Source: Roseateles sp. XES5
GTDB lineage: Bacteria > Pseudomonadota > Alphaproteobacteria > Rhizobiales > Rhizobiaceae
Length of the DNA stretch: 64,000 bases
Direction: 5' to 3'
Assembly: GCF_020535545.1 (NCBI RefSeq)
Contig: NZ_CP084752.1
Coordinates: 2,631,501 to 2,695,500, forward strand
This document shows, in pieces, positions 48,577 to 64,000 of this stretch (positions are counted from its first letter, which is position 1; each line of letters starts with the position of its first letter). The notes below the pieces were generated by a model, which made no database searches, had not been told where the DNA came from, and saw nothing but the letters and a program-made list of their open reading frames with translations. A program made the translations under genes and the position numbers.

Positions 48577-49212
48577 ATGAATGGAATGACGGCTGGCCGC
48601 ATCGAGGCGGTCTTGAAGGCGGCGATTGCGGAGCGTGACCGGCGCATCGCGGATCTGGAGCGCCAGCTTGCCGCGCTGAGGAAGCAGATGGCGGCGACGC
48701 AGGAAGGCGCGCCGGTGGCAACGCCGCCGGTGGACCATCGTGCAGCCCAGCCGCCGCGCGGCGTCGATGTCACCAAAGTCAAGCGCCGCACCGGCGAAGC
48801 GGAGAGGAAGGCGATGCGCGAGAAGCACAGGCAACAGCAGCTGGCGCGCCAGCGGCAGGAGAGCGACGCCGAGAAGGCCGAGAGCAAGGCCGCGCTCGAG
48901 GGGCGCAGCTTCCTCTATGTCGGCGGCCGCGATTGCCAGGTCGCGCATCTGCGGCAGATCGCCAGTTCCTACGGCGCCAACCTCATCCATCACGACGGCG
49001 GCCTGCGCGAGGCGGTGTCGCGCATCGACAATGTGCTGCCCTCGGTCGACTGCGTCTTCTGCCCCATCGACTGTATCAGCCACGATGCCTGCATCCGCGT
49101 GAAGACGGGCTGCAAGAAGTGGGAGAAGGCCTTCGTGCCGCTGCGCAACGGCAGCAAATCCTCCTTCGAACGCGCCCTGCAGAGCATGAGCCAGGGAGAC
49201 AATGTCCAGTGA
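48577..49212 (+). CDS. DUF2325 domain protein
   Basis: This 211-residue cytosolic protein has an N-terminal coiled coil (EAVLKAAIAERDRRIADLER), a Lys/Gln/Arg-rich middle (EKHRQQQLARQRQESDAEKA) and a C-terminal DUF2325 domain (RSFLYVGGRDCQVAHLRQIA, HHDGG, CVFCPIDCISHDACIRVKTG). Cysteines (C142-region FCPIDC, DACIR, GCKKW) could bind metal or haem. The biochemical function is not known to me. It is first gene after the iron box, so an iron or haem role is inferred. Confidence 0.85.
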   Translation: MNGMTAGRIEAVLKAAIAERDRRIADLERQLAALRKQMAATQEGAPVATPPVDHRAAQPPRGVDVTKVKRRTGEAERKAMREKHRQQQLARQRQESDAEKAESKAALEGRSFLYVGGRDCQVAHLRQIASSYGANLIHHDGGLREAVSRIDNVLPSVDCVFCPIDCISHDACIRVKTGCKKWEKAFVPLRNGSKSSFERALQSMSQGDNVQ

Positions 49213-49870: not shown

Positions 49871-50235
49871 CATGCGTCCCGGCGCGGCAGGAACGCGCCC
49901 AGCGCGACCGCCAGCCAACCGGCCATCATGAGCAGACCGCCCGTCGGCGCCGACATCGGGAAGAGCCCGTGCCCCGTGGAATGCCGGACGACGAGATCGC
50001 CGGCAAAGAGCGCGGTGCCGAGGATCAGGAGAGCGGCCGCGAGCGGCGCGGTGCGCACCGAGGACCAGCCGGCGTGAAGCGCGATCAGCGCTGGCGCATG
50101 GGCAAGGCACATGGCGGAGGCGCCGGCCATCAGTCGGGGATCGCTGCCATGCGAGGCCGCTGCAGCGGCGGCGACGCCGGCAAGGCCCATCAGGCCGGCC
50201 ACCAGAAGGGTTGCCGAGCGGAACGAAAAGATCAT
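49870..50235 (-). CDS. DUF423 small membrane protein
   Basis: This 121-residue protein has four membrane segments (TLLVAGLMGLAGVAAAAAAS, LAHAPALIALHAGW, AAALLILGTALFAGDLV, LLMMAGWLAVALGAF) and the DUF423 middle region SGHGLFPMSAPTGGL-like (TGHGLFPMSAPTGG). The function is unknown. The ATG at 50235 has AGGAAT 7 bases upstream. It lies 4 bases after the truncated haemoglobin gene, in one operon. Confidence 0.82.
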   Translation of the reverse strand: MIFSFRSATLLVAGLMGLAGVAAAAAASHGSDPRLMAGASAMCLAHAPALIALHAGWSSVRTAPLAAALLILGTALFAGDLVVRHSTGHGLFPMSAPTGGLLMMAGWLAVALGAFLPRRDA

Positions 50236-50239
50236 CGGA

Positions 50240-50656
50240 TTATTCCTGGTTCTGCATGTGATGGGCAAGACGCGTGACCGGCTCGAGAATGACCTTGCGC
50301 AGGCCTTCGCCCGGCACCGTTTCCTCCAGCGCCCGCACGAAACACAGCAGCCACTCGTCGCGTTCCGCCGGGCCGATGGGCGCCACGAAATGGCGGCGCC
50401 GCAGCATGGGGTGGCCGCGCTTTTCCGTATAGAGCGGCGGGCCGCCGAGCCAGCCGGTCAGGTACTCGTAGAGCTTTTCCTCGCTGCCCGACAGGTCCGG
50501 CGGGTGGATCGCGCGGCAGCGCGCGGCTTCCGGCAAGGTGTCCATCAGATGGTAGAAACGGCGCGTCAGCGCCCGGACGCCGGCCTCGCCCCCGACCGCC
50601 TCGTAAAGCGTGATCGTTTCGCCCTGCCGTTCCTGATCTTCCGTCGTGTCCGCCAT
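50240..50656 (-). CDS. Truncated haemoglobin (group II)
   Basis: This 138-residue globin has TLYEAVGGEAGVRALTRRFY, FYHLMDTLP, then EYLTGWLGGPPLYTEKRGHP with the proximal histidine region RRRHFVAPIG, and WLLCFVRALEE. This is the group II truncated pattern (oxygen or NO handling, peroxide protection). It heads a two-gene operon with DUF423. Confidence 0.9.
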   Translation of the reverse strand: MADTTEDQERQGETITLYEAVGGEAGVRALTRRFYHLMDTLPEAARCRAIHPPDLSGSEEKLYEYLTGWLGGPPLYTEKRGHPMLRRRHFVAPIGPAERDEWLLCFVRALEETVPGEGLRKVILEPVTRLAHHMQNQE

Positions 50657-50746
50657 GGGTCCGTCTTACCGCCGGTGCATTCCCCGCGCAATGGCGGGCT
50701 CCTCGCTGCGGCGAAACGCGCGCATTTGGCGCCGATTGACAAGAAA

Positions 50747-50760
50747 CCGTCCAGACGGTA
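50747..50760. promoter_or_regulatory. Palindromic operator upstream of the TetR gene
   Basis: ACCGTC-CA-GACGGT is a perfect 6-bp inverted repeat placed between a TTGACA -35 (50737-50742) and the start at 50771. Binding would block RNA polymerase, the usual self-repression of TetR regulators. Confidence 0.7.
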
Positions 50761-50770
50761 TGTTTATTGC

Positions 50771-51331
50771 ATGAGCAAGGCGCATCATCGCAAAAAGCAC
50801 CCCGAAGCCGTCCGTCAGCAGCTGCTGGACGTCGCGGCGAAACTGTCGCTGGAAAAGGGGCCGGCAAGCGTGACGCTCGACGCGGTCTCGCAGGCGGCCG
50901 GCGTCAGCAAAGGGGGGCTGCTGCACCATTTCCCCAATAAGCTTTCGTTGCTCGACGGCCTCTTTGCTGACCTGACGGAAAAGCTTGACCGGGCACTGGC
51001 GGAAAGGATGCGCGAGGATCCCGAGCCGAAGGGGCGCTTCACGCGCGCCTACATCTCCGTGTTCTTCCTGCCCGAAGGACTGGCGGACGGAGAGAAGTGG
51101 AAGGTGCTGACCATCGCGCTCATCTCCGAACCGCATCTGCGCGAACGCTGGCGACAATGGGTGGAGCGCCATCTTTCGGAAAATGTCGGCACGGATTCAG
51201 CCTTCGACGCCATGATCGCCCGCTATGCGGTGGACGGTCTGTGGCTTGCGGACCTGCTCGGCACGCCGACGATGGATGCGCAAACGCGCGCCGTAATGCT
51301 GGAGCGACTGACGGCGCTCTCGCGCCTCTGA
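50771..51331 (+). CDS. TetR-family regulator of the SMR efflux gene
   Basis: This 186-residue regulator has a helix-turn-helix at about 15-60 (LLDVAAKLSLEKGPASVTLD, AAGVSKGGLLHHFPNKLSLL). The C-terminal domain (VDGLWLADLLGTPTMDAQTR) is the type seen in repressors beside small drug pumps. The SMR gene follows after 36 bases, so the two are one transcript under the palindrome. Confidence 0.88.
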   Translation: MSKAHHRKKHPEAVRQQLLDVAAKLSLEKGPASVTLDAVSQAAGVSKGGLLHHFPNKLSLLDGLFADLTEKLDRALAERMREDPEPKGRFTRAYISVFFLPEGLADGEKWKVLTIALISEPHLRERWRQWVERHLSENVGTDSAFDAMIARYAVDGLWLADLLGTPTMDAQTRAVMLERLTALSRL

Positions 51332-51367
51332 CCCCTGATATTGGCGCCAATGCGCCGGAGAAGCCCT

Positions 51368-51709
51368 ATGAACCTCACCGTCGTCTATGCCGTGCTGGTC
51401 GTCGCCATCGTCTTTGAAGTCCTCGGCACCTCCGCCATGCAGGCGGCCCAGCATTTCTCGCGCCTCTGGCCGACCGTCATGATGGTGGCGTGTTATGCCG
51501 TCGCCTTCTTCTTTCTCTCCTGGAGCCTGCGCTACGTTCCGGTCGGCATTGCCTATGCCATCTGGAGCGGCCTCGGCATCGTGCTGATCTCGCTCGTCGG
51601 CTATTTCGTCTTCGGCCAGAAGCTCGATCCCGCAGCCATTTTCGGCCTTGGGCTCATCATTGCCGGCGTTCTTGTGCTGAACCTTTTCTCCAAGTCGACA
51701 TTTCACTGA
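51368..51709 (+). CDS. Small multidrug resistance (EmrE/QacE-type) efflux protein
   Basis: This 113-residue protein with four membrane helices carries the essential glutamate in helix 1 (VVAIVFEVLGTSAMQAAQHF) and SMR marks YVPVGIAYAIWSGLGIVLI and GLGLIIAGVLVLNLFS. It expels cationic compounds with protons as a dimer. The ATG at 51368 has GGAG 9 bases before it. Confidence 0.92.
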   Translation: MNLTVVYAVLVVAIVFEVLGTSAMQAAQHFSRLWPTVMMVACYAVAFFFLSWSLRYVPVGIAYAIWSGLGIVLISLVGYFVFGQKLDPAAIFGLGLIIAGVLVLNLFSKSTFH

Positions 51710-51775
51710 AAGATGCCGGGAATTGAAGGGGGGCCCCGCTTGCCAAAAAGCGGGGCTCGCTCTATCGATTCCGGT

Positions 51776-51797
51776 AAATTGAAAGCGGTTTCAATTT
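51776..51797. promoter_or_regulatory. LacI-type operator of thuAB
   Basis: AAATTGAAA-GCGG-TTTCAATTT is a perfect 9-bp inverted repeat with a 4-base centre, 21 bases before the thuA start. Its size and TTGAAA...TTTCAA core fit LacI-family proteins, and the LacI gene lies directly after thuB. Confidence 0.85.
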
Positions 51798-51818
51798 TCG
51801 ACGTCAGAGGAATGGCAC

Positions 51819-52604
51819 ATGGCAATACGCACCATCGTATGGGGTGAGAACATCCACGAGCAGACGAACGCGATCGTGCGTTCGATCTATCCTGATGGCA
51901 TGCACAACACGATCGCCGACGCGCTCAACAAGGACGCGGGCATTTCCGCGACGACGGCGACCCTGCAGGAGCCGGAGCACGGCCTGACGGAGGCACGCCT
52001 TGCCGAGACCGACGTGCTCCTGTGGTGGGGCCACAAGGATCACGGGGCGGTGAGCGATGCGGTGGTGGAGCGTGTGGCAAGGCGCGTGTGGGAAGGCATG
52101 GGTCTCCTCGTGCTGCATTCCGGCCATTTCTCGAAGATCTTCAAGCGCCTGATGGGGACGCCCTGCGCCCTGAAATGGCGCGAGGCCGGCGAGCGCGAGC
52201 GTCTGTGGGTCGTCAACCCGCGCCATCCTATCGCCGAAGGTCTCGGCGAGAATTTCGTGCTGGAAAACGAGGAGATGTACGGCGAGCAGTTCTCCGTGCC
52301 GGAGCCGCTGGAAACGGTGTTCATCTCGTGGTTCGCCGGCGGCGAGGTGTTCCGCTCGGGCCTGACCTGGCGGCGCGGCGCGGGCAATATCTTCTATTTC
52401 CGTCCCGGCCACGAGACCTATCCGACCTATCACGACGCCACCGTCCAGAAGGTGCTGGTCAACGGTGTGAAATGGGCTTTCAACCCGCAGGGCACCTATG
52501 CCGCGATCCACGACGCGCCCAACGTGCCCGTCGAAAAGGCGCTGGAGCCGATCGTCGAGCGCGGCCCGAAACTGCATGAAGCCGGCGAAGCCGGATATCG
52601 CTGA
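51819..52604 (+). CDS. thuA: ThuA trehalose/disaccharide utilisation protein
   Basis: This 261-residue ThuA-like protein of the class I glutamine-amidotransferase-like fold begins [20 protein letters not shown] and has [16 protein letters not shown] and [19 protein letters not shown]. In Ensifer, ThuA and ThuB together convert trehalose, maltitol and related disaccharides through a 3-keto route. GAGGA lies before the ATG. It is 9 bases before thuB. Confidence 0.92.
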
Positions 52605-52613
52605 GGCCATTCG

Positions 52614-53657
52614 ATGCGTCTTCTCGTTCTTGGAACAGGCGGCATGGCCAACACCCATGCCAGGCACTTCGCCGCGATCGACGGTGTCGAGGTCGTCGGC
52701 GCTGTCGATGTCGACCCTTCGCGCGCCAAGGCCTTTGCCGATACGCACGGCATTCCCAACGTCTTCACGTCGCTGGAGGAGGCGATTGCCTGGAATGGCT
52801 TCGACGCCGCCACCAATGTGACGCCCGACCGGGTGCACCACCCCACCACGCTGGCGCTGCTGGCGGCGGGAAAACATGTGATGTGCGAGAAGCCGCTGGC
52901 GGAAAACTATGCCAAGGCGGATGAGATGGCTCGCGCCGCCGAGGCGGCGGGCCTGATCACCATGGTCAATCTCACCTATCGCAATGTCGCGCCGCTACAG
53001 GTGGCGCGCGCCATGGTGCTGGCCGGCGAAATCGGCCATGTGCGCCATGTCGAGGCGTCCTATCTCCAGAGCTGGCTTGTCTCGAAAGCCTGGGGCAACT
53101 GGGCGACGGAGAGTCAGTGGCTCTGGCGGCTTTCGACCCGGCACGGTTCGAATGGCGTGCTCGGCGACGTCGGCATCCATATCCTCGATTTCGCCAGCTA
53201 TGGCGCGGCGAGCGACGTGGAGCACGTCTTCGCCCGGCTGAGGGCCTTCGACAAGGCGCCGGACAACCGTATCGGCGAATACGACCTCGACGCCAATGAC
53301 AGCTTCACCATGACCGTCGATTTCGCCAATGGCGCGCTCGGCGTAGTGCATGCCAGCCGCTGGGCGACCGGTCATCTCAACGAATTGCGCCTGCGCATGC
53401 ATGGCGACAGGGGCGCGCTGGAGGTGATCCATTCGACCGAGGGATCGAAGCTGCGCGGCTGCCTTGGCGAGGATGTGGAAAAGGCCATCTGGCGGGAGAT
53501 CGACGCCGGCACGGTACCGACCAACTATGAGCGTTTTGCTACCGCCGTTGCCGCCGGCGAGAAGATCGAGCCCGGCTTCCGCCATGCCGCCGACCTTCAA
53601 AAGGTGCTCGATCTCGCCATCGAGACCGAGAAGGAGCGGCGGGAACTGAAAGTCTGA
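52614..53657 (+). CDS. thuB: ThuB Gfo/Idh/MocA-family oxidoreductase
   Basis: This 347-residue dehydrogenase has an N-terminal NAD(P) fold (VLGTGGMANTHARHFAAIDG) and the family motif CEKPLAENYAKADEM with the catalytic lysine. The C-terminal part has VLGDVGIHILDFASYGAAS. It acts with ThuA. Its stop faces the LacI gene stop 2 bases away. Confidence 0.92.
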   Translation: MRLLVLGTGGMANTHARHFAAIDGVEVVGAVDVDPSRAKAFADTHGIPNVFTSLEEAIAWNGFDAATNVTPDRVHHPTTLALLAAGKHVMCEKPLAENYAKADEMARAAEAAGLITMVNLTYRNVAPLQVARAMVLAGEIGHVRHVEASYLQSWLVSKAWGNWATESQWLWRLSTRHGSNGVLGDVGIHILDFASYGAASDVEHVFARLRAFDKAPDNRIGEYDLDANDSFTMTVDFANGALGVVHASRWATGHLNELRLRMHGDRGALEVIHSTEGSKLRGCLGEDVEKAIWREIDAGTVPTNYERFATAVAAGEKIEPGFRHAADLQKVLDLAIETEKERRELKV

Positions 53658-53659
53658 GA

Positions 53660-54676
53660 TCAGGCCGGGGCAGGACCCGTCGAGCCACGGACGTGAAGCT
53701 CGACCGGCCAGACCTCCTGCAAGGCTTCCGGCGCTTCCCCTTGCAACAAGCGCAACACCATGTCGCCGATCCGCTCGCCCGCCGCGCGGATCGGCGATTG
53801 CGTGGTGGTGAGGGCCGGGACGAGATTTTCCGGGCTGAGATAGGAAAAGACGTCGTCATGGGCAATGAGGGAGACGTCCGTGCCGACGGCCAGCCCCGCA
53901 ATACGGATCGCCCGCATGGCGCCGAGCGCCGACATCATCGACCCGGCGATGACGGCTGTCGGCGGGGCGGGGAGGGCGAGGAAGGACTGCATCAGCCGGA
54001 AACCGGTCTCGTCGGTGAATTCGCCATGGGCGATCAGCGCGGGATCGACGGCAAGGCCGCGCGCGGCAAGCGTCCTGCGATAGGCCTCGTTCCGGTCGCG
54101 GGCATAGGTGTTGACGGTATCGCCGTTGATGAGCGCGATGCGCCGGTGGCCGAGGGTGGCAAGGTGCTGTGTCGCGGTCTCGATGGCCCCGAAATTGTCG
54201 ATATCGAGGAAGGCGAAGGGTTCGTCGGCCGCGCTGCGCCCATGCACGATGAAGGGCAGGCCTAGCCGTTGCAGGAGAGCGATGCGGCTATCCGTGCAGG
54301 CGGGCGTATGGACAACCACCGCATCCACCCGCTTGCTGGCGGCAAGCCGGCGGTAGGCCGCGGCTTCCTCCTCCTCCGTCTCGACGGTCGAAACGAGGAT
54401 GTCGATACCGTCCCGTTGCAGGCGGGTGGAAAGGCCGCCCATGAATTCGCTGGAATGGGGGCCGAAACGCCCGCTGCCCTGGAACACGATGCCGATGGCG
54501 TCGGCCCGCCCGGTCGCAAGCCGCTGTGCACTGACGTTCGGCCGATAGCCGAGCCGTTCCGCCTCGTGCAGCACGCGCGCCCGGGTTTCGGGCTTCACCT
54601 CCGGGTAGCCGCTCATCGCCCGGCTCACCGTCGTCTGGGAGAGGCCGATGCGGGCGGCGAATTCCTTGAGGTTCAT
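53660..54676 (-). CDS. LacI-family regulator, probable ThuR-like controller of thuAB
   Basis: This 338-residue repressor has the LacI helix-turn-helix (LKEFAARIGLSQTTVSRAMS, GYRPNVSAQRLATGRA) and a sugar-binding domain (RLGLPFIVHGRSAADEPF; IAGSMMSALGAMRAIRIAG). It is convergent with thuB and the only LacI gene in the window, so it most likely reads the operator before thuA. The thuEFGK transporter usually found with it is not here. Confidence 0.88.
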   Translation of the reverse strand: MNLKEFAARIGLSQTTVSRAMSGYPEVKPETRARVLHEAERLGYRPNVSAQRLATGRADAIGIVFQGSGRFGPHSSEFMGGLSTRLQRDGIDILVSTVETEEEEAAAYRRLAASKRVDAVVVHTPACTDSRIALLQRLGLPFIVHGRSAADEPFAFLDIDNFGAIETATQHLATLGHRRIALINGDTVNTYARDRNEAYRRTLAARGLAVDPALIAHGEFTDETGFRLMQSFLALPAPPTAVIAGSMMSALGAMRAIRIAGLAVGTDVSLIAHDDVFSYLSPENLVPALTTTQSPIRAAGERIGDMVLRLLQGEAPEALQEVWPVELHVRGSTGPAPA

Positions 54677-54942
54677 CTTGCTTCCCTGCGTCCGGACGAA
54701 GGACCAGAGGCTTTATGAACCTTCCGATCTATGGGGGCAAGCTCGGCCGGGCGCTGCACAGGGAACCGGTGCGCGACCCGCGCCTTCAGCACTGTCGGGT
54801 ACGGGGTGCCCGGCCTTTCTCGCTGCGGCCAGCCACGAGCAAGATATTCATGCCATAGGCTGGAGCCGGACCTGACGCGGGATGGCGCGGCGCCTTCCGG
54901 CCCGAAGCCCCCTCAGGTCCCGCGCTGTGCTGGAGGCCCTTT

Positions 54943-55722
54943 ATGAACCGTGTCGTGCTTGCCCGTTATTCCGAGCCCCTGGAGTGGATCAAGCTGATCC
55001 CCGACGACTTCGAGGTCATCGTCTACAACAAGGGCGAGAAAATCGAGTCGCCAACGGTTCTCCAGCGCGCCACGCAGATCATCGACCGTCCCAACGAGGG
55101 CCGGGAATCGGAGACCTATCTCAACCACATGCTGACGGAGATGCGGGACGACGACGGTTTCACCGTCTACGCCCAGGGTGGCCCCTTCGAGCATAGCCCG
55201 GACTTCATCAGCCTGCTGCACACCTGGAAGACGTGGGACGACCTGCAGCCGATGTCCTGGCAATGGCTCGCCGATAAGAAAGTGCCGCCGCCGCTGCTGC
55301 TTGCCGATTACGAGCGTGGCCTGTGCGGCCGGCCGCGTGTCCGGCTCGAACGCTTCTCGCTGCTCACCTGGGGACCGATCGATTTCATCGACCAGGGCGC
55401 ATGGGGCATGGGCCATGTCTACCGCGCCATCCATGAGGGTCTGCCTGACGGGACCAACATCGCAAGCCACTTCTTCAAGCTGGCCAAGCTCGACGCGCTT
55501 GCGGAAGAGGCCGAGCGCCACATGGTCGGCGTTTTCTCCTACGGCGCCATCTTCGCCGTCCGCAACCGCCGCGTCGCCGCGGTCCCGGCCGAATCCCTCG
55601 CGATCCTGCGCCACCTCTCGGTCTCGGGCATCGCGGTTTACGGCTACATCCTCGAACGCCTCTGGCTGCATCTCTTCGGCGAGAAGTTCTCGCTGCCGAA
55701 GTTCACCCCGCCGCCGCTCTGA
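54943..55722 (+). CDS. DUF3431-like protein
   Basis: This 259-residue protein has no signal peptide and begins MNRVVLARYSEPLEWIKLIP with VIVYNKGEKIES and RPNEGRESETYLNHMLTEM. That start matches DUF3431, a family with a glycosyltransferase-like fold in many members. Further on are YAQGGPFEHSPDFISLL and WGMGHVYRAIHEGLPDG. The function is unknown. The stop codon lies inside the first copy of a tandem 28-base repeat. Confidence 0.7.
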   Translation: MNRVVLARYSEPLEWIKLIPDDFEVIVYNKGEKIESPTVLQRATQIIDRPNEGRESETYLNHMLTEMRDDDGFTVYAQGGPFEHSPDFISLLHTWKTWDDLQPMSWQWLADKKVPPPLLLADYERGLCGRPRVRLERFSLLTWGPIDFIDQGAWGMGHVYRAIHEGLPDGTNIASHFFKLAKLDALAEEAERHMVGVFSYGAIFAVRNRRVAAVPAESLAILRHLSVSGIAVYGYILERLWLHLFGEKFSLPKFTPPPL

Positions 55723-55762
55723 GCGGCGATTCTGGCCGCCGCCGCTCTGGGCGGCTATTCTG
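55708..55762. repeat. Imperfect 28-base tandem duplication over a stop codon
   Basis: Two 27-base copies (starting 55708 and 55736) differ at two positions. The first holds the TGA of the DUF3431-like gene; in the second the same codon is TGG. It arose probably by slippage or a short duplication. Confidence 0.8.
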
Positions 55763-55780
55763 TAAAGCAGGGTTTGGCAA

Positions 55781-55815
55781 AGCCGGAACCGCCTCGATAG
55801 GCGTTCCGGCTTTTT
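55781..55815 (+). terminator. Rho-independent terminator after the DUF3431-like gene
   Basis: A 13-bp stem (AGCCGGAACCGCCT with AGGCGTTCCGGCT, one bulge) and 4-base loop are followed by TTTTT. Confidence 0.9.
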
Positions 55816-55886
55816 GCGTCGGAAAATGATTGTCGACAAACCGCGCTTTGCGGCGTGCTTCACGGGAGCCTGATCGGGATGGCAGG

Positions 55887-58118
55887 TCAGGCCGTTTCGT
55901 CAAGCTGCTCCTGCTCGAACAGCTCTTCCGGCAGGGATTCGTACCAGGCCGTGATGCGCTTGGCGATGTCGCGGCTCGCATCCACGCGGAAATGCGCGCA
56001 GTCCACCATGCGGTCCTGGTTCACGAAGTCGTCCACATCGAGGAAATCGACCTCGTCGCGAATGGCGGCGAGGCGCCGCCAGACATCGCCGAAAGCGGCC
56101 ATGCGCGTCGTAGTGATCCCGCGCATGATGTGATCGTCGTTGACGCCGACATCGCTGGGATTGCCGATCACCAGGAGACGGCGTCCCTTCACCTTCAGGA
56201 AGTCGCAGAATTCGCTGGCGCAATGTTCATAGAGGCCGCTTTCGAGATGCTCCCAGGCTTCCCGTGGCCACATGACATTGAAGAAATCGGAGCCGATGTA
56301 ATGCACGACCGCAGGCGGATAGTTCTGCAGGCGGTACGACTTGTTGAGGATCATCGACAGGACGAAGATGCGGGGATGGCTGTCGATTTCGGCGACGTCC
56401 CGCAGGCCGGAAAAATGCGCGAAGACGCCGGACTGGCAATTCGCCATGAAACGGATGCGGACATCGCGGTTGTCGATGTCCGGGCTGATTTCCTCCGCGA
56501 GGATGCGGGCGCGAACCTCGGGATTGTTGAAGTCCTCGACCGTGATCCAGGACGGAATTTCCGGCGTCACGGAGATGCTGTCCGGCACCTGCAGGTTCCG
56601 GAAGCGCTGGAACGCCTCATGCAGCAGCACGCTTTCCATGCCCATATGCATGATGCGGCAGGAGAAGGCCATGTGCAGCAGCGCTTCGGTCCGCACATCC
56701 GCGGCAATGAAACCGACGAGACCGTGATAGCCGAACTTGTCCCAGGCAAACAGCGCGAAGCCTTCCCGCAAGGAAGCCTCGGAAACGAAGTCCACCATCG
56801 AGCCGGGCTGGACGCGGGTCTTCATATAGTTGAGCTGGTTGGTGCGGTTGATCAGTTCCTCGAGCCGCGGCGCGAAGTCGACAAGGTCGGAACTGGTGGC
56901 GATCGCCACGTGGATGTCGCAGGTTCGCAGGAACGCCTCGCGGTCGCCCTCGAAAGCCTCGCCCTCCGTCAACCGGCTCTGCAGGCTCCGATATTCCTCG
57001 ACCCGCGACTTCTGGACATGGGCATGGCTCTCCACGAGCCTGGCGAGAAACGCGTCGCATTCATCGGACTTGGCATCGAGCGTGTGCAGATCCGGAAGAA
57101 CGGCCTTGGCTTCGGCAAGGTTGATGTCGTTGTCGTCGACGAACAGGCAGTTCTTCGGCTTGAGCTGCATGTCCTTGATCAGCGTCTGGATCGCCGCGCC
57201 CTTGGGCACGAAGGCGATGCGCGGGAAGACGAACTCGTCCCAAAGCCCGAGCGCCTCCAGCTTGCGGCGGGCGATGTCGAAATCGTTCTTCGAGCAGATG
57301 GCGGAGACGATACCGGAGCGGTTCAGACGGCGCAGCGCCTCGACGCGCGCCTCATGGGGAACGATGGCATCGGCATCGTCCAGCGTGCCCTGCCAGAGAG
57401 TCTCGTCGAGATCCCAGATGACCAGCTTGATGGATTTGGCGACATCTTCGACCGGCTTTTCCGCCTTCGCGGCGCGCCGAGGCCGCGTTGCCTGCACGCC
57501 CTTCAGGAAGAACATCGCCGAATCCGCGCCGAAGCTTTCGATCTCACGCTCCACGCCCGGGCGGAAGCAGATGGAAACCGGAACGCCGGCCTGTGAAAGC
57601 GCCTGGTAATTCTGCAGGAAGGCGACCGGCGACACGACCGGGTCGTTCTCGCCATGAACGAGCAGCACCGGCGGCCGTCCCTTCACATCCTGCCGAAGAT
57701 CGGAAAAACCTTCGATATCGCCGCTGAAGCCGATGATGGCGGAGGGGGATTCGACCTGTCGCAGCCCGTGATAGAAGGCAAGCGCCACGCCCTCCATATG
57801 GCCGACGATCGCGATCCTGTCGTTCGTCAGGCCATAGTCGTTCCGCAGCCCGGCAATATAGGCGTCCAGCGCCTCCGCCCCCAGCACGAGCCCGATGGAT
57901 GGCACGGAAGGATCCACCACGGCCTCTTCATCGGCAACCTCGGCCGCGCCCTGGAAGATCGGCATGGCAAACAGAGTATCGCCCATATGCTCGCGCCAGC
58001 GGCCGGCGAGCAGGCGCATGGTCGCATCCTCGGCGTTTCTGCCATGCAGCAGGACAACGGCGAACTGCGGCTCCTCGCCGTTGGCGGGCAGAAGCTTGCT
58101 GTCAAATCCGATGCGCAT
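55887..58118 (-). CDS. Fusion: degenerate alpha/beta-hydrolase + FkbH-like HAD-IIIC + SGNH-like domain
   Basis: This is a 743-residue protein. Residues 18-205 look like a phospholipase/carboxylesterase fold (FAVVLLHGRN; VLLVHGENDPVVSP), but the nucleophile elbow reads G106-H-M-E-G with Met in place of Ser, and the His position (GVEREI, about 191) is Arg. Residues 230-530 are an FkbH/HAD-IIIC domain (D236 and D238 in IWDLDET, SKND at 276-279, DDND at 328-331, RTNQLNYMKTR). Residues 550-730 have SGNH-like marks (NCQ at 560-562, D706-x-x-H709). FkbH proteins load glyceryl or handle acyl-carrier substrates. No carrier protein is nearby. Start 58118 follows GGACGATCC. Confidence 0.78.
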   Translation of the reverse strand: MRIGFDSKLLPANGEEPQFAVVLLHGRNAEDATMRLLAGRWREHMGDTLFAMPIFQGAAEVADEEAVVDPSVPSIGLVLGAEALDAYIAGLRNDYGLTNDRIAIVGHMEGVALAFYHGLRQVESPSAIIGFSGDIEGFSDLRQDVKGRPPVLLVHGENDPVVSPVAFLQNYQALSQAGVPVSICFRPGVEREIESFGADSAMFFLKGVQATRPRRAAKAEKPVEDVAKSIKLVIWDLDETLWQGTLDDADAIVPHEARVEALRRLNRSGIVSAICSKNDFDIARRKLEALGLWDEFVFPRIAFVPKGAAIQTLIKDMQLKPKNCLFVDDNDINLAEAKAVLPDLHTLDAKSDECDAFLARLVESHAHVQKSRVEEYRSLQSRLTEGEAFEGDREAFLRTCDIHVAIATSSDLVDFAPRLEELINRTNQLNYMKTRVQPGSMVDFVSEASLREGFALFAWDKFGYHGLVGFIAADVRTEALLHMAFSCRIMHMGMESVLLHEAFQRFRNLQVPDSISVTPEIPSWITVEDFNNPEVRARILAEEISPDIDNRDVRIRFMANCQSGVFAHFSGLRDVAEIDSHPRIFVLSMILNKSYRLQNYPPAVVHYIGSDFFNVMWPREAWEHLESGLYEHCASEFCDFLKVKGRRLLVIGNPSDVGVNDDHIMRGITTTRMAAFGDVWRRLAAIRDEVDFLDVDDFVNQDRMVDCAHFRVDASRDIAKRITAWYESLPEELFEQEQLDETA

Positions 58119-58470
58119 GGGGATCGTCCTGTCTGGTCTCAAGAACAAAGGCAGGCAGAGGCGCTTACCATCCGAACGCACCAACCTGCATTTGCGATTG
58201 CCCGCATTCGCACGCAGCAACCGACGCTATCGCCTTATCTGCTCAAGCTGGTGTGAAGCTCTCGGAATGGGGTGTCTGATGGCGTGGGGAGGAGCTGCTC
58301 GGTGCTTGGGCTTTGCTCCGATACCCTTGCGTCACAGGTCCGGCAGGGCCTGCCATCGTGCCATTGATGATTACTCGCCGAAATATCGGGTTTGCATGCC
58401 GGAACGAGATCCGGCGAACGGGCTTGCCGAACCAGGGGTTCGATGCCGTTCGCGCCGGATCCCTTGAACG
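58119..58470. other. Intergenic stretch without a recognisable gene
   Basis: The 352 bases hold only short frames with no family resemblance. It should contain the promoter of the fusion gene. It ends against the decarboxylase stop and shows no clear terminator. Confidence 0.4.
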
Positions 58471-59952
58471 TCAGCTAGCCTTGCTTTCTTTCACAATCTT
58501 GTCCCCAAGGCGGATTGTTTCCTGGATCAGCAAATCCAGGTCGCTGCGCCGCGTTCTGTGATTGTCTATCGCGACCCGCAGGCAATGCGCACCATTGACT
58601 GTCGTGTCCGAGAGTACTGCGGTGCCTTCTTCCTGTAATCTCAGCATGATCTCGGTGTTAAGTGCCTTCAGATCCCCGGCGCTCATCCCATCCGCGCGAT
58701 AGCGAAAGCAGACGATACTGATGTTTGTCGGCGCGACCAGCTCCAAAAGAGGTTCGGCCTCGACCAGTGCGCTGAGATAGTGAGCCTGCTCTATGTTCTG
58801 GTCGATCAGGCGGCCAAACTTCTCGATTCCATGCTCCTTGAGGGCCATCCAGACCTTGAGCGCCCGGAACCCGCGCGAGGTCTGCAGGCTGTAATCTGAG
58901 AGCCAATTGGCCGATGCAAGACCGCGGGGTGTCATCTCCAGATACTCAGGCGTCACGGCAAATGTATTGCGATGCGCTGCGGCATCCCGAATGAGGGTGC
59001 AACCGGCCTCAATTGGCGAGTGGAGCCATTTGTGTGGATCGAGTGCAACGGAATCGGCGCGTTCGATGCCGGCCACGCGATAGGCGTTCGACGGGGCGAT
59101 GGCGATCAAAGCGCCTATGCAGCCATCGACATGAAACCAGAGATTCTCATCTTCCGCCAAGCTCGCGAGAGCCTGCAGATCGTCGATAGCACCAGTATTG
59201 ACTGTCCCGGCCGTTCCGATCACGCAGGCAGGCTGGAACCCCGCTGCACGGTCCTCCGCAATCGCCGCCCGCAAGGCCGTGAGATCGATGCGCAATGCGG
59301 TATCTGTCGGAATGCGTCGTAGGGTCCGATTTCCCAACCCCAACGCTTCCATTCCCTTGCGGTGGCAACTGTGAATTTGATCAGAGCCGTAGAAACGCAA
59401 GGGTTTTTCCATGGCGGCCACACCGTGCTCGCGCACGTCGATGCCCGCCTTCACATTCCGCGCCACGTTCAGGCCGATGATATTGGCCATCGAGCCGCCG
59501 GCCACCAGGGTGCCGCTGGCGGACGCGGGGAAGCCGACCATCTCCTTGCACCAGTTCACTACCTGTTGGTCCACCATTGTGGCGGCATGGTTTCCGCCAC
59601 CAACATTCGAGCCCTGGACGGCTGCCAAAAAATCTCCCAGCGCCCCGGCAAAATTGCTGGCCCCCATGTACCAGGCCCAGAAGCGTGGATGCACGTTACC
59701 CATGGGATAGGGCATCACGTTCTCCGCCACTTCGCGATAGACTTCGGCCAGCGGCGCCGGCGACCGCGGCAACGAGGATCTGAAAAATGCCTTTACGTCC
59801 GCAGGCATTTCCCGCCAAACCGGACGGTCGCGGACGTCACGCAGATAGCTTACCCCATCGTCGACGATTTTGTGCGCCAGCGCCTCAACATCCGACCAGT
59901 CGTTCGGGTCAAGCGTTTCTTCAGCCGGCCGTCCTGCTGCAATCTCATCCAT
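58471..59952 (-). CDS. Group II PLP-dependent (aromatic-L-amino-acid-type) decarboxylase
   Basis: This 493-residue enzyme has GGSMANIIGLNVARN, the phosphate-binding GTAGTVNTGAIDD, D276 in FHVDGCIGA and K308 in ALDPHKWLHSP, the PLP lysine. The fold is that of aromatic amino acid, histidine or glutamate decarboxylases of group II; the substrate is undecided. Codon use is more AT-tolerant than the rest of the window (GTA, TTT, AGA, GCA), a sign of transfer. The ATG at 59952 follows GGGAGGGGG; an in-frame TTG is 15 bases upstream. It stands alone. Confidence 0.88.
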   Translation of the reverse strand: MDEIAAGRPAEETLDPNDWSDVEALAHKIVDDGVSYLRDVRDRPVWREMPADVKAFFRSSLPRSPAPLAEVYREVAENVMPYPMGNVHPRFWAWYMGASNFAGALGDFLAAVQGSNVGGGNHAATMVDQQVVNWCKEMVGFPASASGTLVAGGSMANIIGLNVARNVKAGIDVREHGVAAMEKPLRFYGSDQIHSCHRKGMEALGLGNRTLRRIPTDTALRIDLTALRAAIAEDRAAGFQPACVIGTAGTVNTGAIDDLQALASLAEDENLWFHVDGCIGALIAIAPSNAYRVAGIERADSVALDPHKWLHSPIEAGCTLIRDAAAHRNTFAVTPEYLEMTPRGLASANWLSDYSLQTSRGFRALKVWMALKEHGIEKFGRLIDQNIEQAHYLSALVEAEPLLELVAPTNISIVCFRYRADGMSAGDLKALNTEIMLRLQEEGTAVLSDTTVNGAHCLRVAIDNHRTRRSDLDLLIQETIRLGDKIVKESKAS

Positions 59953-60450
59953 CAGACCCCCTCCCAAAAAGTGCTGATGCGTTGAGATAATATACGCGTT
60001 TGCTTATGGACGCTATCCAACTGAACTTTCGATAGGGTTCAATCCTGTCATTTGGCGGTTTCCGTTGGCTTGTGGCTTCCTGCCCAAGGTCGTTGGTGCG
60101 CCCGGCTGCAAGCTTTCAGGAAGGTGTCCATTGAGTTACCGCCGGGAAGCTGGGGTTTCAGCATCTCGCAGGGTTGCGCGTCGGTGAGAGTGCCGCGCTG
60201 ATCGTGCGCGCCGTCATTGGCGGCGATGGCAAGGTCGGAACGCAATTCTGATTGCGGAAGTCATCAAGGACGCAGCACAACGTAGGACGTCTTTCGCGTT
60301 GCCTTGGTCGGCGTGCCGCGCTCTCTCCCTGTCATGGAAGGCCACATTGAATATATTGAAGAATTTCGAAACGCTTGTGCAATTGCGCTGCTTATTTCCA
60401 GCACACGCGAAGACAAGAAGACTGATTATTCAATGAATCAAGAAACTCGG
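59953..60450. other. Gap before the att site, possibly decayed sequence
   Basis: Nearly 500 bases without a credible gene. Short frames such as a 65-codon minus-strand one at 60048-60245 have no recognised domain. Lower GC and broken frames next to an att site suggest an older decayed insertion edge. Confidence 0.4.
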
Positions 60451-60495
60451 TGGCGCACCCGACAGGATTCGAACCTATGACCTTTGGAATCGGAA
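60451..60495 (-). other. 3' half of tRNA-Arg(CCG), probable attachment site
   Basis: On the minus strand the sequence runs from TTCCGAT (anticodon loop, anticodon CCG) through TCCAA, AGGTC, the T arm (ATAGG-TTCGAAT-CCTGT) and CGGGTGC-G-CCA. That is exactly the anticodon loop to the CCA end of tRNA-Arg(CCG). The 5' half is missing, so it is not a working tRNA. It is the footprint left when an element integrates into a tRNA 3' end. Confidence 0.85.
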
Positions 60496-60518
60496 CGCGG
60501 CCCTCAACGATTTCCCGC

Positions 60519-60644
60519 TGCTTCCTCTTGTTTACCAAACTGTGATTTTGGTATCCAGATCAAGCGGTAAGCCTTTTCGCCAGTTCCAACGGTCTTTCCT
60601 TAGTTTCCGGCAATTTGCTTCCTGCTGCTTCCTATATGCTTCCT
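60519..60644 (+). repeat. Four TGCTTCCT repeats between att site and integrase
   Basis: Exact copies of TGCTTCCT begin at 60519, 60616, 60626 and 60637. The last three are 10 and 11 bases apart, one helical turn. That is the layout of integrase arm-type or excisionase sites near an att core. Confidence 0.6.
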
Positions 60645-60665
60645 GTAGCAGGGTGAGGTGCCGGA

Positions 60666-61954
60666 ATGGCGAAGCTGACAAAACGAGTGGTCGATGGTCT
60701 CGAGCCGAAGGAAAAGGACTTCTTCCAGTGGGACGATGAGCTGCCGGGCTTCGGTGTGCGTGTCTGGCCCACCGGCCGCAAAACCTATGTTGCGCAATAC
60801 CGATCCGGCGGTCAAACCCGGCGCTTCAAGATCGGTGTCCACGGCCCTCTCACAGTCGAAGAAACCCGCAAGGAGGCCAATCAGTCCTCGGTGACGTTGC
60901 GCGTGGCGACGATCCGCAGCAGGATCGAGCGACCCGCCGCAAGTCTTTGACCATCGAGCAGCTTGTCGACGACTATTTCGCCGCTGCTGATAAAGGCTTG
61001 ATCCTGGGGAAGAGGAACAAGCCGAAGAAGGCGAACACGGTCTATGTGGATCGTGGGAGGGCAAAGCGGCATATCGTGCCACTCGTCGGTAAGAGGATCG
61101 TCAAGGACTTCACCGCAGCCGACGGCACGAAGATGATGCGGGACATTACCGCCGGCAAGACGGCCACTGTGGAGAAGACTGACAAACTCCGCGGCAAGGC
61201 AAAGGTGACCGGCGGCGCCGGAACTGCTTCTCAAGCCCTGACCCTGCTTAGCGGCATGTTCACCTTTGCCGTCTCCGAAGGGGTCATTCCCCACAATCCT
61301 CTCCGGGGCATCAAGAAACCAGCTGTGGGCGTTCGCACGCGCCGCTTGTCGCCGGATGAGTATAGAGCGCTAGGAAAGGTGCTGGAGGACGCTGGCGACG
61401 AGCTTTGGCAGGGCGTCGCGGGCACTAAGCTCTTTCTCCTCACTGGTTTCCGGTTGAGCGAGATTGCTGGGCTCATGTGGTCGGAAATCGATGAGGACGG
61501 AAGCTGCATCCGGCTTGACGATTCGAAAGAAGATGCTTCCATTCGGCCATTCGGCCATTCGGCCATTCGGCCAGTCGGGCGTCCCGTCTTCGATGTGCTA
61601 GCATCGTTGCCGCGGGAGAAGGGCGCCCGTTATGTCCTGCCAGGACCGAGGAGCGAAGACGGTTTCTACACCTCCCTCGACGAGGCGATCGGTAGGCTCA
61701 CGAAGAGGGCAGGGCTGGAGGGCGTCACCTCGCACACCCTCAGGCATTCCTACGCTAGTGTGGCCGGCGACCTCGGCTTTACCGAGATCACCATAGCCGC
61801 TCTCTTGGGTCACTCGGCCGGGAACGTCATCCAGCGCTACATCCACCACCTTGATAGCGTGCTGATTGCAGCCGCGAACAAGGTCTGCGGCGAGGTGCAT
61901 CGCATGATGACGGGGCGGACGGCGAAGGTCGTCAGAATGCCGAAGCGAGCTTAG
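60666..61954 (+). pseudogene. int: Tyrosine integrase of the integrative element, split by a one-base deletion
   Basis: The first frame (60666-60950) holds the arm-binding N-terminus (LTKRVVDGLEPKEKDFFQWD, GFGVRVWPTGRKTYVAQYR). The second (60947-61954) holds the core and catalytic domains with Arg in TGFRLSEIAG, HTLRHSYAS, LLGHSAGNV and Tyr in QRYIHH. Inserting one base after 60884 joins them with family-like sequence (QILGDVARGDDPQQDRATRR) for about 429 residues. As given, the integrase is broken. An in-frame 24-base repeat expansion lies at 61540. Confidence 0.85.
61540..61579 (+). repeat. CATTCGGC octamer repeated four times in the integrase gene
   Basis: Four perfect copies of CATTCGGC (61540-61571) are followed by a decayed fifth. 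The extra 24 bases add eight residues (FGHSAIRP) to a loop that is normally SIRPVGRPVF-like. Loss or gain of one unit would shift the frame. Confidence 0.85.
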
Positions 61955-62421
61955 CGTCCGTCAGAAGGATTGGGGAAGGGGTCGCCGTCCAACGGTGGTT
62001 CCTCGACCCCATTGGACTGGTCGCCTTCGTGGTGGCCGTAGAGGCCAAAGCGCTTTCTTTCCTCTTCTTTTTGATGCTCCCAAGCTTCGATTCGTTCGGC
62101 GACTTTCTCAGCGAAGCCCGCTGTCACGATCAGCTTGTCGGCGAAGATGTCGTGAAGGGTGCTGTCAATCTCGGACGCTATCTCGTCGATCCGCTCTTCA
62201 AGGTCGCTTCCATGCTTCAGAGCAGCTACCAGGTCCGCAAGATGCTCGACCCGATCTTCAAATGATGCTGGCCGAGGGAAATATTCTTCAAGGCAATGAA
62301 CAATCGCCTCGTTCATCGAAAGCCCTAAGCGTTCTGCCTGCGTCTTGATGCGGTCGCGCATTCCGGGTGGCAGCCGCACTATGAATTGATCGTAGTCGCG
62401 TACCCGCGCCTTCTTCCCCAT
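61951..62421 (-). CDS. Arc-family DNA-binding protein
   Basis: This 156-residue protein has an N-terminal ribbon-helix-helix (DYDQFIVRLPPGMRDRIKTQ, AERLGLSMNEAIVHCLEEYF) of the Arc repressor type, then a charged helical region. Its stop overlaps the integrase end by 4 bases on the other strand. It is divergent from the small HTH gene, with two palindromes between them, so it is the probable repressor of the element's operon. The ATG at 62421 follows GAGGGG. Confidence 0.85.
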   Translation of the reverse strand: MGKKARVRDYDQFIVRLPPGMRDRIKTQAERLGLSMNEAIVHCLEEYFPRPASFEDRVEHLADLVAALKHGSDLEERIDEIASEIDSTLHDIFADKLIVTAGFAEKVAERIEAWEHQKEEERKRFGLYGHHEGDQSNGVEEPPLDGDPFPNPSDGR

Positions 62422-62436
62422 AACACCCCTCATGCA

Positions 62437-62510
62437 ATATCACGCGTGCGATATCTCGCTTGCATTTACCATTCGTTTATGACTTAATCCAGTGATCGCA
62501 CCCGTGCGAT
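62437..62510. promoter_or_regulatory. Two related palindromic operators between divergent element genes
   Basis: Copy 1 (62437-62455) is ATATCACGCGTGCGATATC. Copy 2 (62495-62510) is ATCGCAC-CC-GTGCGAT, a perfect 7-bp inverted repeat. Both share GTGCGATA. They are about 55 bases apart and flank the likely promoters of the Arc gene and the rightward operon. Confidence 0.65.
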
Positions 62511-62539
62511 ACCACTATCTCGGCAAGGATTAAGATATT

Positions 62540-62770
62540 ATGAATGACGAAAAACCACGCCTGCGCCGCTCCGAGGTTCCCGAATACATGCTGCGTAAAC
62601 ACGGCATTCCGGTAGCCTTGGCAACGCTCGCCAAGATGGCAACCGTTGGCGGTGGCCCGGCCATGCAGCACGCCGGCCGCATCCCCCTCTACCATGTCAA
62701 CGATCTGGATGCCTGGGCGGATGAACGCCTGTCCAAGCCAGCCCGCTCGACCTCCGAAAGGGCGGCATGA
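62540..62770 (+). CDS. Small helix-turn-helix protein, excisionase/AlpA-like
   Basis: This 76-residue basic protein with a winged-helix-like pattern has [40 protein letters not shown] and [10 protein letters not shown]. Such proteins sit near integrases in rhizobial elements and act as excisionases or activators. It is first in the rightward run of overlapping genes. Confidence 0.8.
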
Positions 62771-63165
62771 TCATCGCCACCCAGAAAGCAAAAGGCCCGG
62801 CGACCGTTGCAGCGGTTCCGAGCCATGGTTCCACCAATCCCCAGAAGGATACGGAAATGAACGAGGTAACGAATACCACGGCGGCGGCGGCCAAGTCAAA
62901 GCCGACTGATGCGCAGATCGTCAAGGCCATGGACAATCTCATGGGCGATGTGCACTTCCTTCGGAGAGCCGCCGTCGTCTCCGACGAGCTGACGAGCATG
63001 GAGTTCCGCCGGTCGAAGACGGACGGGAGCAGCCTCCACTTCAAGTACGGCCTGACCACCGAACAAGTCGAAGGCATCACCTACATGCTGATGCATGTCC
63101 GTGACCTTGCTGAAAAGCTTGAGACAGCATGGGACAACGCCTTCGGCCTGGAGGGCGTTCAATGA
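62767..63165 (+). CDS. Hypothetical element protein 1
   Basis: A 132-residue frame overlaps the HTH gene by 4 bases (ATGA). Residues 45-130 are helical with [20 protein letters not shown] and [19 protein letters not shown]. An ATG at 62857 (MNEVTNTT) is a plausible alternative start after a GGA-rich site. The family is unknown. Confidence 0.65.
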
Positions 63166-63374
63166 GTGCCTCCAATCAGCCAGCAATGATGATCACGAAA
63201 GCGATTGACGAATGTGACTTCGCTGCGAGTTTCGCCGAGGCGATTTTCATGGCCGCGGTCGGGATCAACGACACTGAGCAAACCGGCGCGATCCAAGTCG
63301 TGGCTGAGGAAGTACGGCGAAAGCTGTTTTCGATCAGTGCTACGCTCGCTGATATCAGTAGGGCGCTGAAATGA
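63162..63374 (+). CDS. Hypothetical element protein 2
   Basis: A 70-residue helical protein (FAASFAEAIFMAAVGINDTE; EVRRKLFSISATLADISRAL). The ATG at 63162 overlaps the stop before it by 4 bases. It has no recognised domain. Confidence 0.65.
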   Translation: MSASNQPAMMITKAIDECDFAASFAEAIFMAAVGINDTEQTGAIQVVAEEVRRKLFSISATLADISRALK

Positions 63375-63610
63375 CCGCGAACCTCCCGACCACCCATGCC
63401 CGCATAAAGGACCGAGTTAAGGAACTGGCGGCGATGGTCAACCTGATCGACGGTGAAACCCTTGCGGCGGATATCAACACCACCGCTGATCGCTTGGCGG
63501 CGTTGATGCAGCGGATGCACGGCGGGAAGTGGAGCATCGATATCGATCATGACACCTGCTTCGTAGCTGTCTGCCGCGATTTCCCTGACGAACGGGAGGT
63601 GAAGCGATGA
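63371..63610 (+). CDS. Hypothetical element protein 3
   Basis: A 79-residue protein (RIKDRVKELAAMVNLIDGET; RLAALMQRMHGGKWSIDIDH) with a helical start and a short beta end. It overlaps both neighbours by 4 bases. Confidence 0.65.
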   Translation: MTANLPTTHARIKDRVKELAAMVNLIDGETLAADINTTADRLAALMQRMHGGKWSIDIDHDTCFVAVCRDFPDEREVKR

Positions 63611-63798
63611 TGATACCTCCCGAACACTCCCACTCCGCCGCGGTCGAGGAGGCCGCCCACTGGCTCGCGGATCTTCGCGAGCCTCCCCTCCCTGTCGTGC
63701 CGGCGCTGAAAGAGCGGTTCGGTCTCTCTGCCGTCGAGGCGTGCGAGGCGATCGCCTGGGCTGACCGTATGCGCGTTTATCGAAAGGCCCATGAATGA
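63607..63798 (+). CDS. Hypothetical element protein 4
   Basis: A 63-residue protein (AVEEAAHWLADLREPPLPVV; ALKERFGLSAVEACEAIAWA). The second half resembles a small helix-turn-helix. It overlaps the genes before and after by 4 bases. Confidence 0.65.
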   Translation: MMIPPEHSHSAAVEEAAHWLADLREPPLPVVPALKERFGLSAVEACEAIAWADRMRVYRKAHE

Positions 63799-64000
63799 AG
63801 AAGAACCAAAATCGGCGCCTAGCAAGCGACGGCCGATACTTCCCGATGTTCGAATGGTTCATGCGCTCAGCGGCATGGCATCATGCGTCTGTATACGAGA
63901 AAGCCCTCTACGTCGAAATTAAGCGACGGTATGACGGCAAGAACAATGGTGACATTCCAATGTCGCATCGAGAGGCGGCAGGGCTACTGGGTTGCAGCAA
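63795..64000 (+). CDS. Element protein with replication-initiator-like start (3' truncated by window)
   Basis: 68 residues are visible: FEWFMRSAAWHHASVYEKAL, then YDGKNNGDIPMSHREAAGLL. The last part is the winged-helix start seen in phage and plasmid replication proteins (NNG, S-R-A motifs). It overlaps the previous gene by 4 bases. It may be the replication protein of the element; the rest is outside. Confidence 0.55.
   Translation, partial: MKKNQNRRLASDGRYFPMFEWFMRSAAWHHASVYEKALYVEIKRRYDGKNNGDIPMSHREAAGLLGCS

Follow-up and report, generated by a model that had tools for sequence, protein, structure and literature searches.

A candidate glyceryl-transfer protein with a degenerate esterase domain fused to an FkbH core in Roseateles sp. 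XES5

We analyzed a gene of Roseateles sp. XES5 (family Rhizobiaceae) that lies in a stretch of 64,000 nucleotides (contig NZ_CP084752.1, positions 2,631,501 to 2,695,500), hereafter called the window, and encodes a protein of 743 amino acids in which an α/β-hydrolase domain, an FkbH core, and an SGNH-fold domain follow one another in one chain. The gene occupies 55887..58118 on the minus strand, as do all protein features given below, with its ATG at 58118 and its stop at 55887; an alternative TTG start at 58220 would give a product of 777 residues, and the homologues P0002 and P0003 have the same 743-residue length as the window protein. Residues 1-210 (57489..58118) form the hydrolase domain (Abhydrolase_2, type-II carboxylesterase fold), from which the nucleophile Ser and the catalytic His are missing. 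They are followed by the FkbH core at residues 228-505 (56604..57437), with D236/D238, K277, and D328/D329 in its HAD-IIIC half and C487 in its second half, and by the SGNH-fold domain at residues 553-735 (55914..56462), with S563, D706, and H709. A frameshift or annotation artifact was ruled out by the 743-residue homologues and by codon-level selection. An overlapping plus-strand frame of 588 residues was rejected as a gene, being the antisense of a high-GC gene with similar antisense frames in relatives.

The N-terminal hydrolase domain

A preliminary description of this locus had taken the front of the protein for a catalytically dead α/β-hydrolase, and structure prediction agrees, returning an intact α/β-hydrolase fold for residues 1-210 with high confidence; both the fold and the Pfam score match the Abhydrolase_2 or type-II carboxylesterase family (PF02230). 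Each residue named in that description was found in the 743-residue protein. The degenerate nucleophile elbow reads G-H-M-E-G at residues 106-110 (57789..57803), with Met108 in the place of Ser, the former triad Asp is kept as D159 (57642..57644), and R191 stands at the position of the catalytic His, at the end of the segment C-F-R-P-G-V-E-R (residues 184-191; 57546..57569). With Met108 for Ser and Arg191 for His, the Ser-Asp-His triad of an active PF02230 enzyme is incomplete, and, judged from sequence and predicted fold, the domain is a member of this family but not an active esterase. Compared with the type-II carboxylesterases and acyl-protein thioesterases of the family (4fhz and 5dwd), it lacks Ser and His, is fused to an FkbH core, and carries a clade-specific C-F-R-P strand.

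When a protein collection was searched, 1501 of the 7994 candidates scored proved to be relatives at E ≤ 0.001; 120 of them were listed, and the query was aligned with 33 of these. The N domain is present in 32 of the 34 rows, the query included, and the protein is one of a family of such fusions, for which the preliminary description had suggested a search. The two rows without it, P0028 (1190 residues) and P0029 (1191 residues), carry the FkbH-SGNH pair twice per chain behind a different N-terminal stretch. Across the 32 rows the nucleophile position holds Ala (11), Gly (11), Ser (6), or Met (4), and the His position holds His (15), Arg (12), Leu (2), or Thr, Gln, and Pro (1 each). Twenty-seven of these rows, the query included, are of a type that we call Rhizobiaceae-type on the basis of its named members (Rhizobium, Agrobacterium vaccinii, and Shinella) and of the tree; here the nucleophile position holds Ala (11), Gly (11), Met (4), or Ser (1), the His position holds Arg (12), His (10), Leu (2), Thr (1), Gln (1), or Pro (1), and both Ser and His are lost in 16 of the 27. 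Met108 and Arg191, whose conservation had been raised as a check, are therefore not conserved, and the alignment indicates that the conserved feature is the loss of a working triad rather than these two residues themselves. Homologues with GxSxG at this place, named beforehand as a finding that would speak against a dead domain, do occur in 6 of the 32 rows but leave the loss in the window protein standing. Five distant rows (P0034, P0035, P0036, P0037, and P0063), all from one source collection, have the complete triad, with GYSQG and His. The sixth, P0023, is nested in the clade of dead domains and has GVSEG; it carries Ser as the nucleophile residue, but Arg replaces the His.

One explanation of this pattern is that the domain is still catalytic by another route, for example by way of Asp159, another nucleophile, or a co-substrate. 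Asp159 is kept in 25/27 Rhizobiaceae-type rows, His in 10/27, and Ser is present again in P0023; however, Ala, Gly, or Met replaces the nucleophile in 26/27, the elbow offers no other conserved nucleophile, and Ser and His are jointly absent from more than half of the rows, all of which makes this explanation very improbable. The dead clade has invariant residues of its own: P180, C184, F185, and G207 are identical in 27/27 rows and R186 in 26/27, whereas none of these residues is shared by the five intact rows, save for one Arg at 186. One side of an α/β-hydrolase-type domain is made up of the last strand together with the first and the last helix, and the clade-specific residues may form an interface.

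In a tree of the FkbH core with 77 rows (81 picked of 121, four of which were removed by a motif filter), the N-domain rows, three N-truncated rows, and P0033 make up one group of 36 rows (SH-aLRT (Shimodaira-Hasegawa-like approximate likelihood ratio test) support 99). Once the five intact rows are set apart, the other 31 form a clade (SH-aLRT 99), the first branch of which is P0033, a protein of 524 residues without the N domain. In the tree of the 32 N-domain rows, the 27 Rhizobiaceae-type rows are all on one side of a branch (support 100/99), and the fewest changes needed are two for Ser, five for His, and one for Asp. The simplest account of these trees would be one fusion with an intact triad, after which Ser was lost once in the ancestor of the Rhizobiaceae-type clade, the His position changed several times, and Ser returned once (P0023, which still lacks His). 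Because the distant fusions keep GxSxG and the whole triad, the dead state appears to be derived from an active-looking ancestor.

We compared codons with a Nei-Gojobori script to obtain ratios of nonsynonymous to synonymous substitution (dN/dS). In the three close relatives L003, L004, and L005 (pairs L003-L005, L003-L004, and L004-L005, in this order), dN/dS was 0.08, 0.07, and 0.11 in the N domain, values that are rough because dS there is about 1; it was 0.05, 0.08, and 0.06 in the FkbH part and 0.05, 0.04, and 0.07 in the tail. The dead N domain is under purifying selection in this trio. Since selection preserves it in three close relatives although the domain has no Ser-His pair that could work, it most likely has a non-catalytic role, and of all the steps proposed below this is the best supported. 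The binding or carrier role put forward in the preliminary description is thus upheld as far as a non-catalytic part is concerned, and what the domain holds is a matter of suggestion. Against such a role count the limitation of the low ratios to a single trio, the His retained at the His position in the trio's protein row (the P0008-P0013 group), N-domain dN/dS values of 0.36-0.46 between the trio and the window gene, a greater distance at which the FkbH part gave 0.15-0.20 and the tail 0.27-0.34, and the three rows P0016, P0017, and P0020, which lack part of the N domain, by loss or because their sequences are cut.

The three shortened rows would also fit a second explanation, that the N domain is a useless, tolerated leftover of the fusion that is being lost. 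Within the dead clade no other part of the protein is as poorly conserved: over 26 rows, pairwise identity averages 0.43 in the N domain, 0.72-0.73 in the FkbH halves, and 0.51 in the tail. Its Ser position can hold Ala, Gly, Met, or Ser, its His position changed at least five times on the tree, and the domain is missing from P0033 at the clade base. However, the N domain also ranks lowest in conservation among the intact rows (0.35, with 0.37 for the tail), none of the eight coding sequences compared is interrupted by a stop, and the low dN/dS in the trio, the new invariant residues, and the intact predicted fold make a mere leftover unlikely. The dead esterase domain is now probably a holding or docking part.

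The FkbH core and the SGNH tail

FkbH enzymes share HAD motif I (DxDxTLW), a Lys, a DD motif, an NxTNQxN motif, and the Cys of an SCR motif. The FkbH/HAD-IIIC motifs of the window protein are intact, as first described, and D236, D238, K277, D328, D329, N427, Q428, and C487 are identical in 34/34 rows. The TIGR01686 (FkbH) model matches residues 230-507 with 134 bits (E 6e-39; 136.8 bits in the genome search). The genome encodes a second, typical FkbH protein of 646 residues (L001 643-2583; G000:C1:1855043-1856983; 290.8 bits), which is 26% identical to the window protein over the shared part and has its signature residues in register, among them the Cys that aligns with Cys487. This second protein adjoins a frame that reads as methyltransferase-like, and it matches the solved protein BF1531 (3slr; E 1.5e-57). 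The FkbH/HAD-IIIC glyceryltransferase-phosphatases, for example Mad7 and Mad14 of tetromadurin, have the same two halves with Asp, Lys, and Cys in register; unlike them, the window protein adds the N-terminal hydrolase and the C-terminal SGNH domain, has no carrier match in its window, and scores below the curated cut-off of TIGR01686 (146.65 bits). The low score and the modest identity to the genome's typical FkbH protein could mean that the core handles another acyl phosphate, or is a phosphatase only, rather than a glyceryltransferase; however, with the signature residues of both halves invariant in every row, we regard this as quite unlikely.

The SGNH-like tail noted in the preliminary description has the fold of the SGNH hydrolase/acyltransferase superfamily, with the Ser and the Asp and His of the DxxH block present. 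C561, S563, G564, and H709 are identical in all 32 rows that reach them and D706 in 29/32; likewise, the tail has a Cys, a Ser, a Gly, a Trp, and a His that are invariant in 42 aligned sequences (Ser and His in 42/42). A near-invariant Asp-Tyr/Phe pair lies approximately where block III, with its Asn, would be expected. The SGNH sugar O-acyltransferases OatA and PatB have catalytic domains with 11-14% identity to the window's in the rows listed, and the window's SGNH domain differs from them in being fused to an acyl-loading enzyme.

Distribution and genomic neighborhood

Among the genome loci, of which the best 80 of 283 relatives were kept, the three-domain order is found in six (L003-L008), and 40 of the 41 loci L009-L049 have the FkbH core and the same tail without the hydrolase, L024 being the one left unassigned. 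These two-domain proteins, mostly of about 500 residues, share core and tail with the window protein but lack its α/β-hydrolase front; their hosts include Sphingomonas, Novosphingobium, Luteimonas, Stenotrophomonas, Microbacteriaceae, and Corynebacterium. In seven loci (L011, L012, L019, L020, L021, L040, and L048), the FkbH-SGNH pair has an N-terminal stretch of about 164-191 residues that differs from the hydrolase domain of the window protein; a Pfam scan of this stretch in L012 and L019 gave nothing over the cut-off. The Rhizobiaceae three-domain relatives (Rhizobium wuzhouense L003, R. oryzicola L008, Shinella L007, and R. rosettiformans p1 L108) have the same order, an N domain without the Ser, and intact FkbH and SGNH residues, but the residues at the Ser and His positions vary, and their neighbors differ.

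The gene is rare. Among 61 genomes searched, a full-length match was found in the window's own only, and in 0/20 other genomes of the genus. Among 394 genomes drawn from the family, four had matches at E ≤ 1e-100, three of them three-domain (the own genome and those of L003 and L008) and one two-domain (513 residues). Any match was found in 116 plasmid records, but a match spanning 80% or more of the query was seen in one alone, R. rosettiformans p1 (54.6%). For fusions with an intact triad, P0034 matched only the window's own gene among 385 genomes of the class at E ≤ 1e-80, and when P0034 served as a protein query, the 120 rows listed included no additional fusion.

To the left of the gene, a genus-wide backbone (52600-54726) is nearly complete in 18 of the 20 other genomes, split in two in another, and half present in the last. 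To the right, a 45-bp fragment from the 3' part of a tRNA-Arg (CCG) gene (60451-60495), 98% identical in 16/20 other same-genus genomes, lies beside a phage-type integrase gene (60666-61954); G008 and G009 have whole tRNA-Arg genes at the place of this piece. Because the gene is rare among genomes, has one such relative on a plasmid, and is sited between this backbone and the tRNA-Arg piece and integrase, it is patchy in the family (three-domain in 3/394 genomes) and was probably transferred. A further copy of the tRNA-Arg piece in the same genome, with no tRNA found around it, lies at C1:2705873-2705917, which suggests integrated elements in a row that extend past the right end of the window. 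The segment from a LacI-type regulator to the tRNA-Arg piece (54676-60451) is variable in the genus, with about 1.6 kb in G009 and about 5.8 kb here. The convergent gene at 54943-55722, with a DUF3431 match below the cut-off only, was matched at the DNA level in 3/20 other genomes; the FkbH gene and a decarboxylase gene gave only short, chance-like pieces in these 20. Within 50000-64000 there was no Rfam match, and no tRNA gene was found in the window; the promoter scan gave 0 sites (0.4 in shuffles) and the terminator scan one (2.6 in shuffles).

Neighbors were compared by BLAST of open reading frames from 44-64 kb of the window with six Rhizobiaceae loci. A DUF2325 gene is common to the window (48577-49212, about 6.7 kb away) and R. 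oryzicola L008 (7339-7731, beside the three-domain gene). On R. rosettiformans p1, an FkbM methyltransferase gene is directly upstream, a transposase gene lies beside, and cellulose-synthesis genes are about 7-10 kb off. The neighboring genes fix no pathway for the window protein.

A possible route of glyceryl transfer

FkbH enzymes take glyceryl from 1,3-bisphosphoglycerate as a thioester and remove the remaining phosphate; for the window protein, this chemistry is read from residues. We propose that the FkbH core would take glyceryl from 1,3-bisphosphoglycerate as a thioester on Cys487, with the remaining phosphate removed at the HAD-IIIC site. The fused SGNH domain (Ser563-Asp706-His709) would then replace a separate carrier protein, accept the glyceryl group, and pass it to an acceptor hydroxyl, most likely that of a sugar in a surface polysaccharide or glycolipid. 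The N-terminal hydrolase, which would stem from an active-looking esterase fused once and no longer cuts, might hold the acceptor or fix the geometry of the other domains. The window protein may thus be a self-contained orphan glyceryl-transfer enzyme with a pseudo-esterase front, probably acting on a glycan, a description that we consider as probable as all others together; its substrate and acceptor, like the carbohydrate or lipid acceptor envisaged in the preliminary description, are inferred. In a bolder form, glyceryl would move from the FkbH Cys to the SGNH Ser in one chain and on to an acceptor held by the pseudo-esterase, making the protein a carrier-free glyceryl O-acyltransferase in which an esterase captured by fusion, once acting on the same ester and perhaps removing or editing it, lost its nucleophile once and became an acceptor-binding or allosteric module through the new invariants of its last strand and helices; in this full form we find the scheme rather doubtful.

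Glyceryl transfer to a sugar is favored, at roughly even odds, by several observations taken together: the SGNH tail, the extensions of other relatives (GT2 or LicD occurs in four of nine FkbH proteins that were chosen because their extensions are long or varied), data on cj1302 of Campylobacter jejuni, and the lack of a carrier match in the window. In C. jejuni, a flagellin sugar carries a glyceric-acid derivative as an amide (PMC3068675), and strain 12664, in which the FkbH gene cj1302 is a pseudogene, is described as being without this derivative (PMC7099621). Gellan L-glyceryl and a glyceryltransferase activity are mentioned, with no gene named in the portions consulted (PMC4432689 and PMC9737242). 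In the sections of the literature on FkbH and gellan or other glycans that were available, no gene-level link was found, and no paper on the three-domain arrangement surfaced in these searches, none of which was aimed at the arrangement. Outside these papers, a patent reportedly assigns the glyceryltransferase of gellan to an fkbH gene, an assignment that we do not count among the evidence.

Several points weigh against this reading. First, C. jejuni strain 12661 is also without the sugar, and the gene that it is said to miss is cj1301, not cj1302 (PMC7099621); further, the Campylobacter acyl group is on nitrogen, not oxygen (PMC3068675). Second, the sub-threshold TIGR01686 score means that the substrate could differ, and the SGNH domain could be a hydrolase instead of a transferase. 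Third, among the flanking window genes scanned, no glycan-synthesis genes were recognized, runs of common neighbors were found only among L003, L004, and L005, with no neighbor common to all loci compared, and the forty Sphingomonas-type two-domain loci have common, unrelated, and, by reading, seemingly housekeeping neighbors. Finally, a two-domain relative is present in Sphingomonas ATCC 31555. To our knowledge, the welan gum of this strain carries no glyceryl.

The preliminary description had also stated that no acyl-carrier protein or polyketide genes are near. No PP-binding (carrier-protein) or ketosynthase match was found in the window, nor were the cluster-borne carrier protein and polyketide synthase (PKS) genes of carrier-dependent polyketide FkbH systems; in Shinella L007, however, a frame that reads as acyl-carrier-like (13561-13836) is found some 3.3 kb downstream of the gene, followed by one that reads as FabF-like, which is a further point against glyceryl-to-sugar transfer, although the two frames look like an ordinary fatty-acid cluster. 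Glyceryl might accordingly be delivered to an acyl-carrier protein encoded far away and serve a small-molecule pathway, as in polyketide clusters, with the SGNH domain as an editing thioesterase. The FkbH enzymes of PKS and nonribosomal peptide synthetase systems that two papers describe act on carrier domains (PMC8949500 and PMC7489565), and elsewhere the genome has seven PP-binding matches and a frame of 2497 residues with a ketosynthase match, besides its second, typical FkbH protein. However, about 98 kb separate the gene from the closest PP-binding match, and a fused SGNH domain would, in our judgment, be unusual in such a role, so that we hold a distant carrier to be unlikely, if the strongest of the alternatives to glyceryl transfer onto a glycan.

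Overall, the gene offers a traceable case in which an enzyme domain, once fused, gave up its catalytic residues but was retained, and relatives with a complete triad still exist with which it can be compared. If glyceryl transfer to a glycan is indeed its function, this orphan gene class could explain carrier-free glycerate decorations on bacterial surface sugars.
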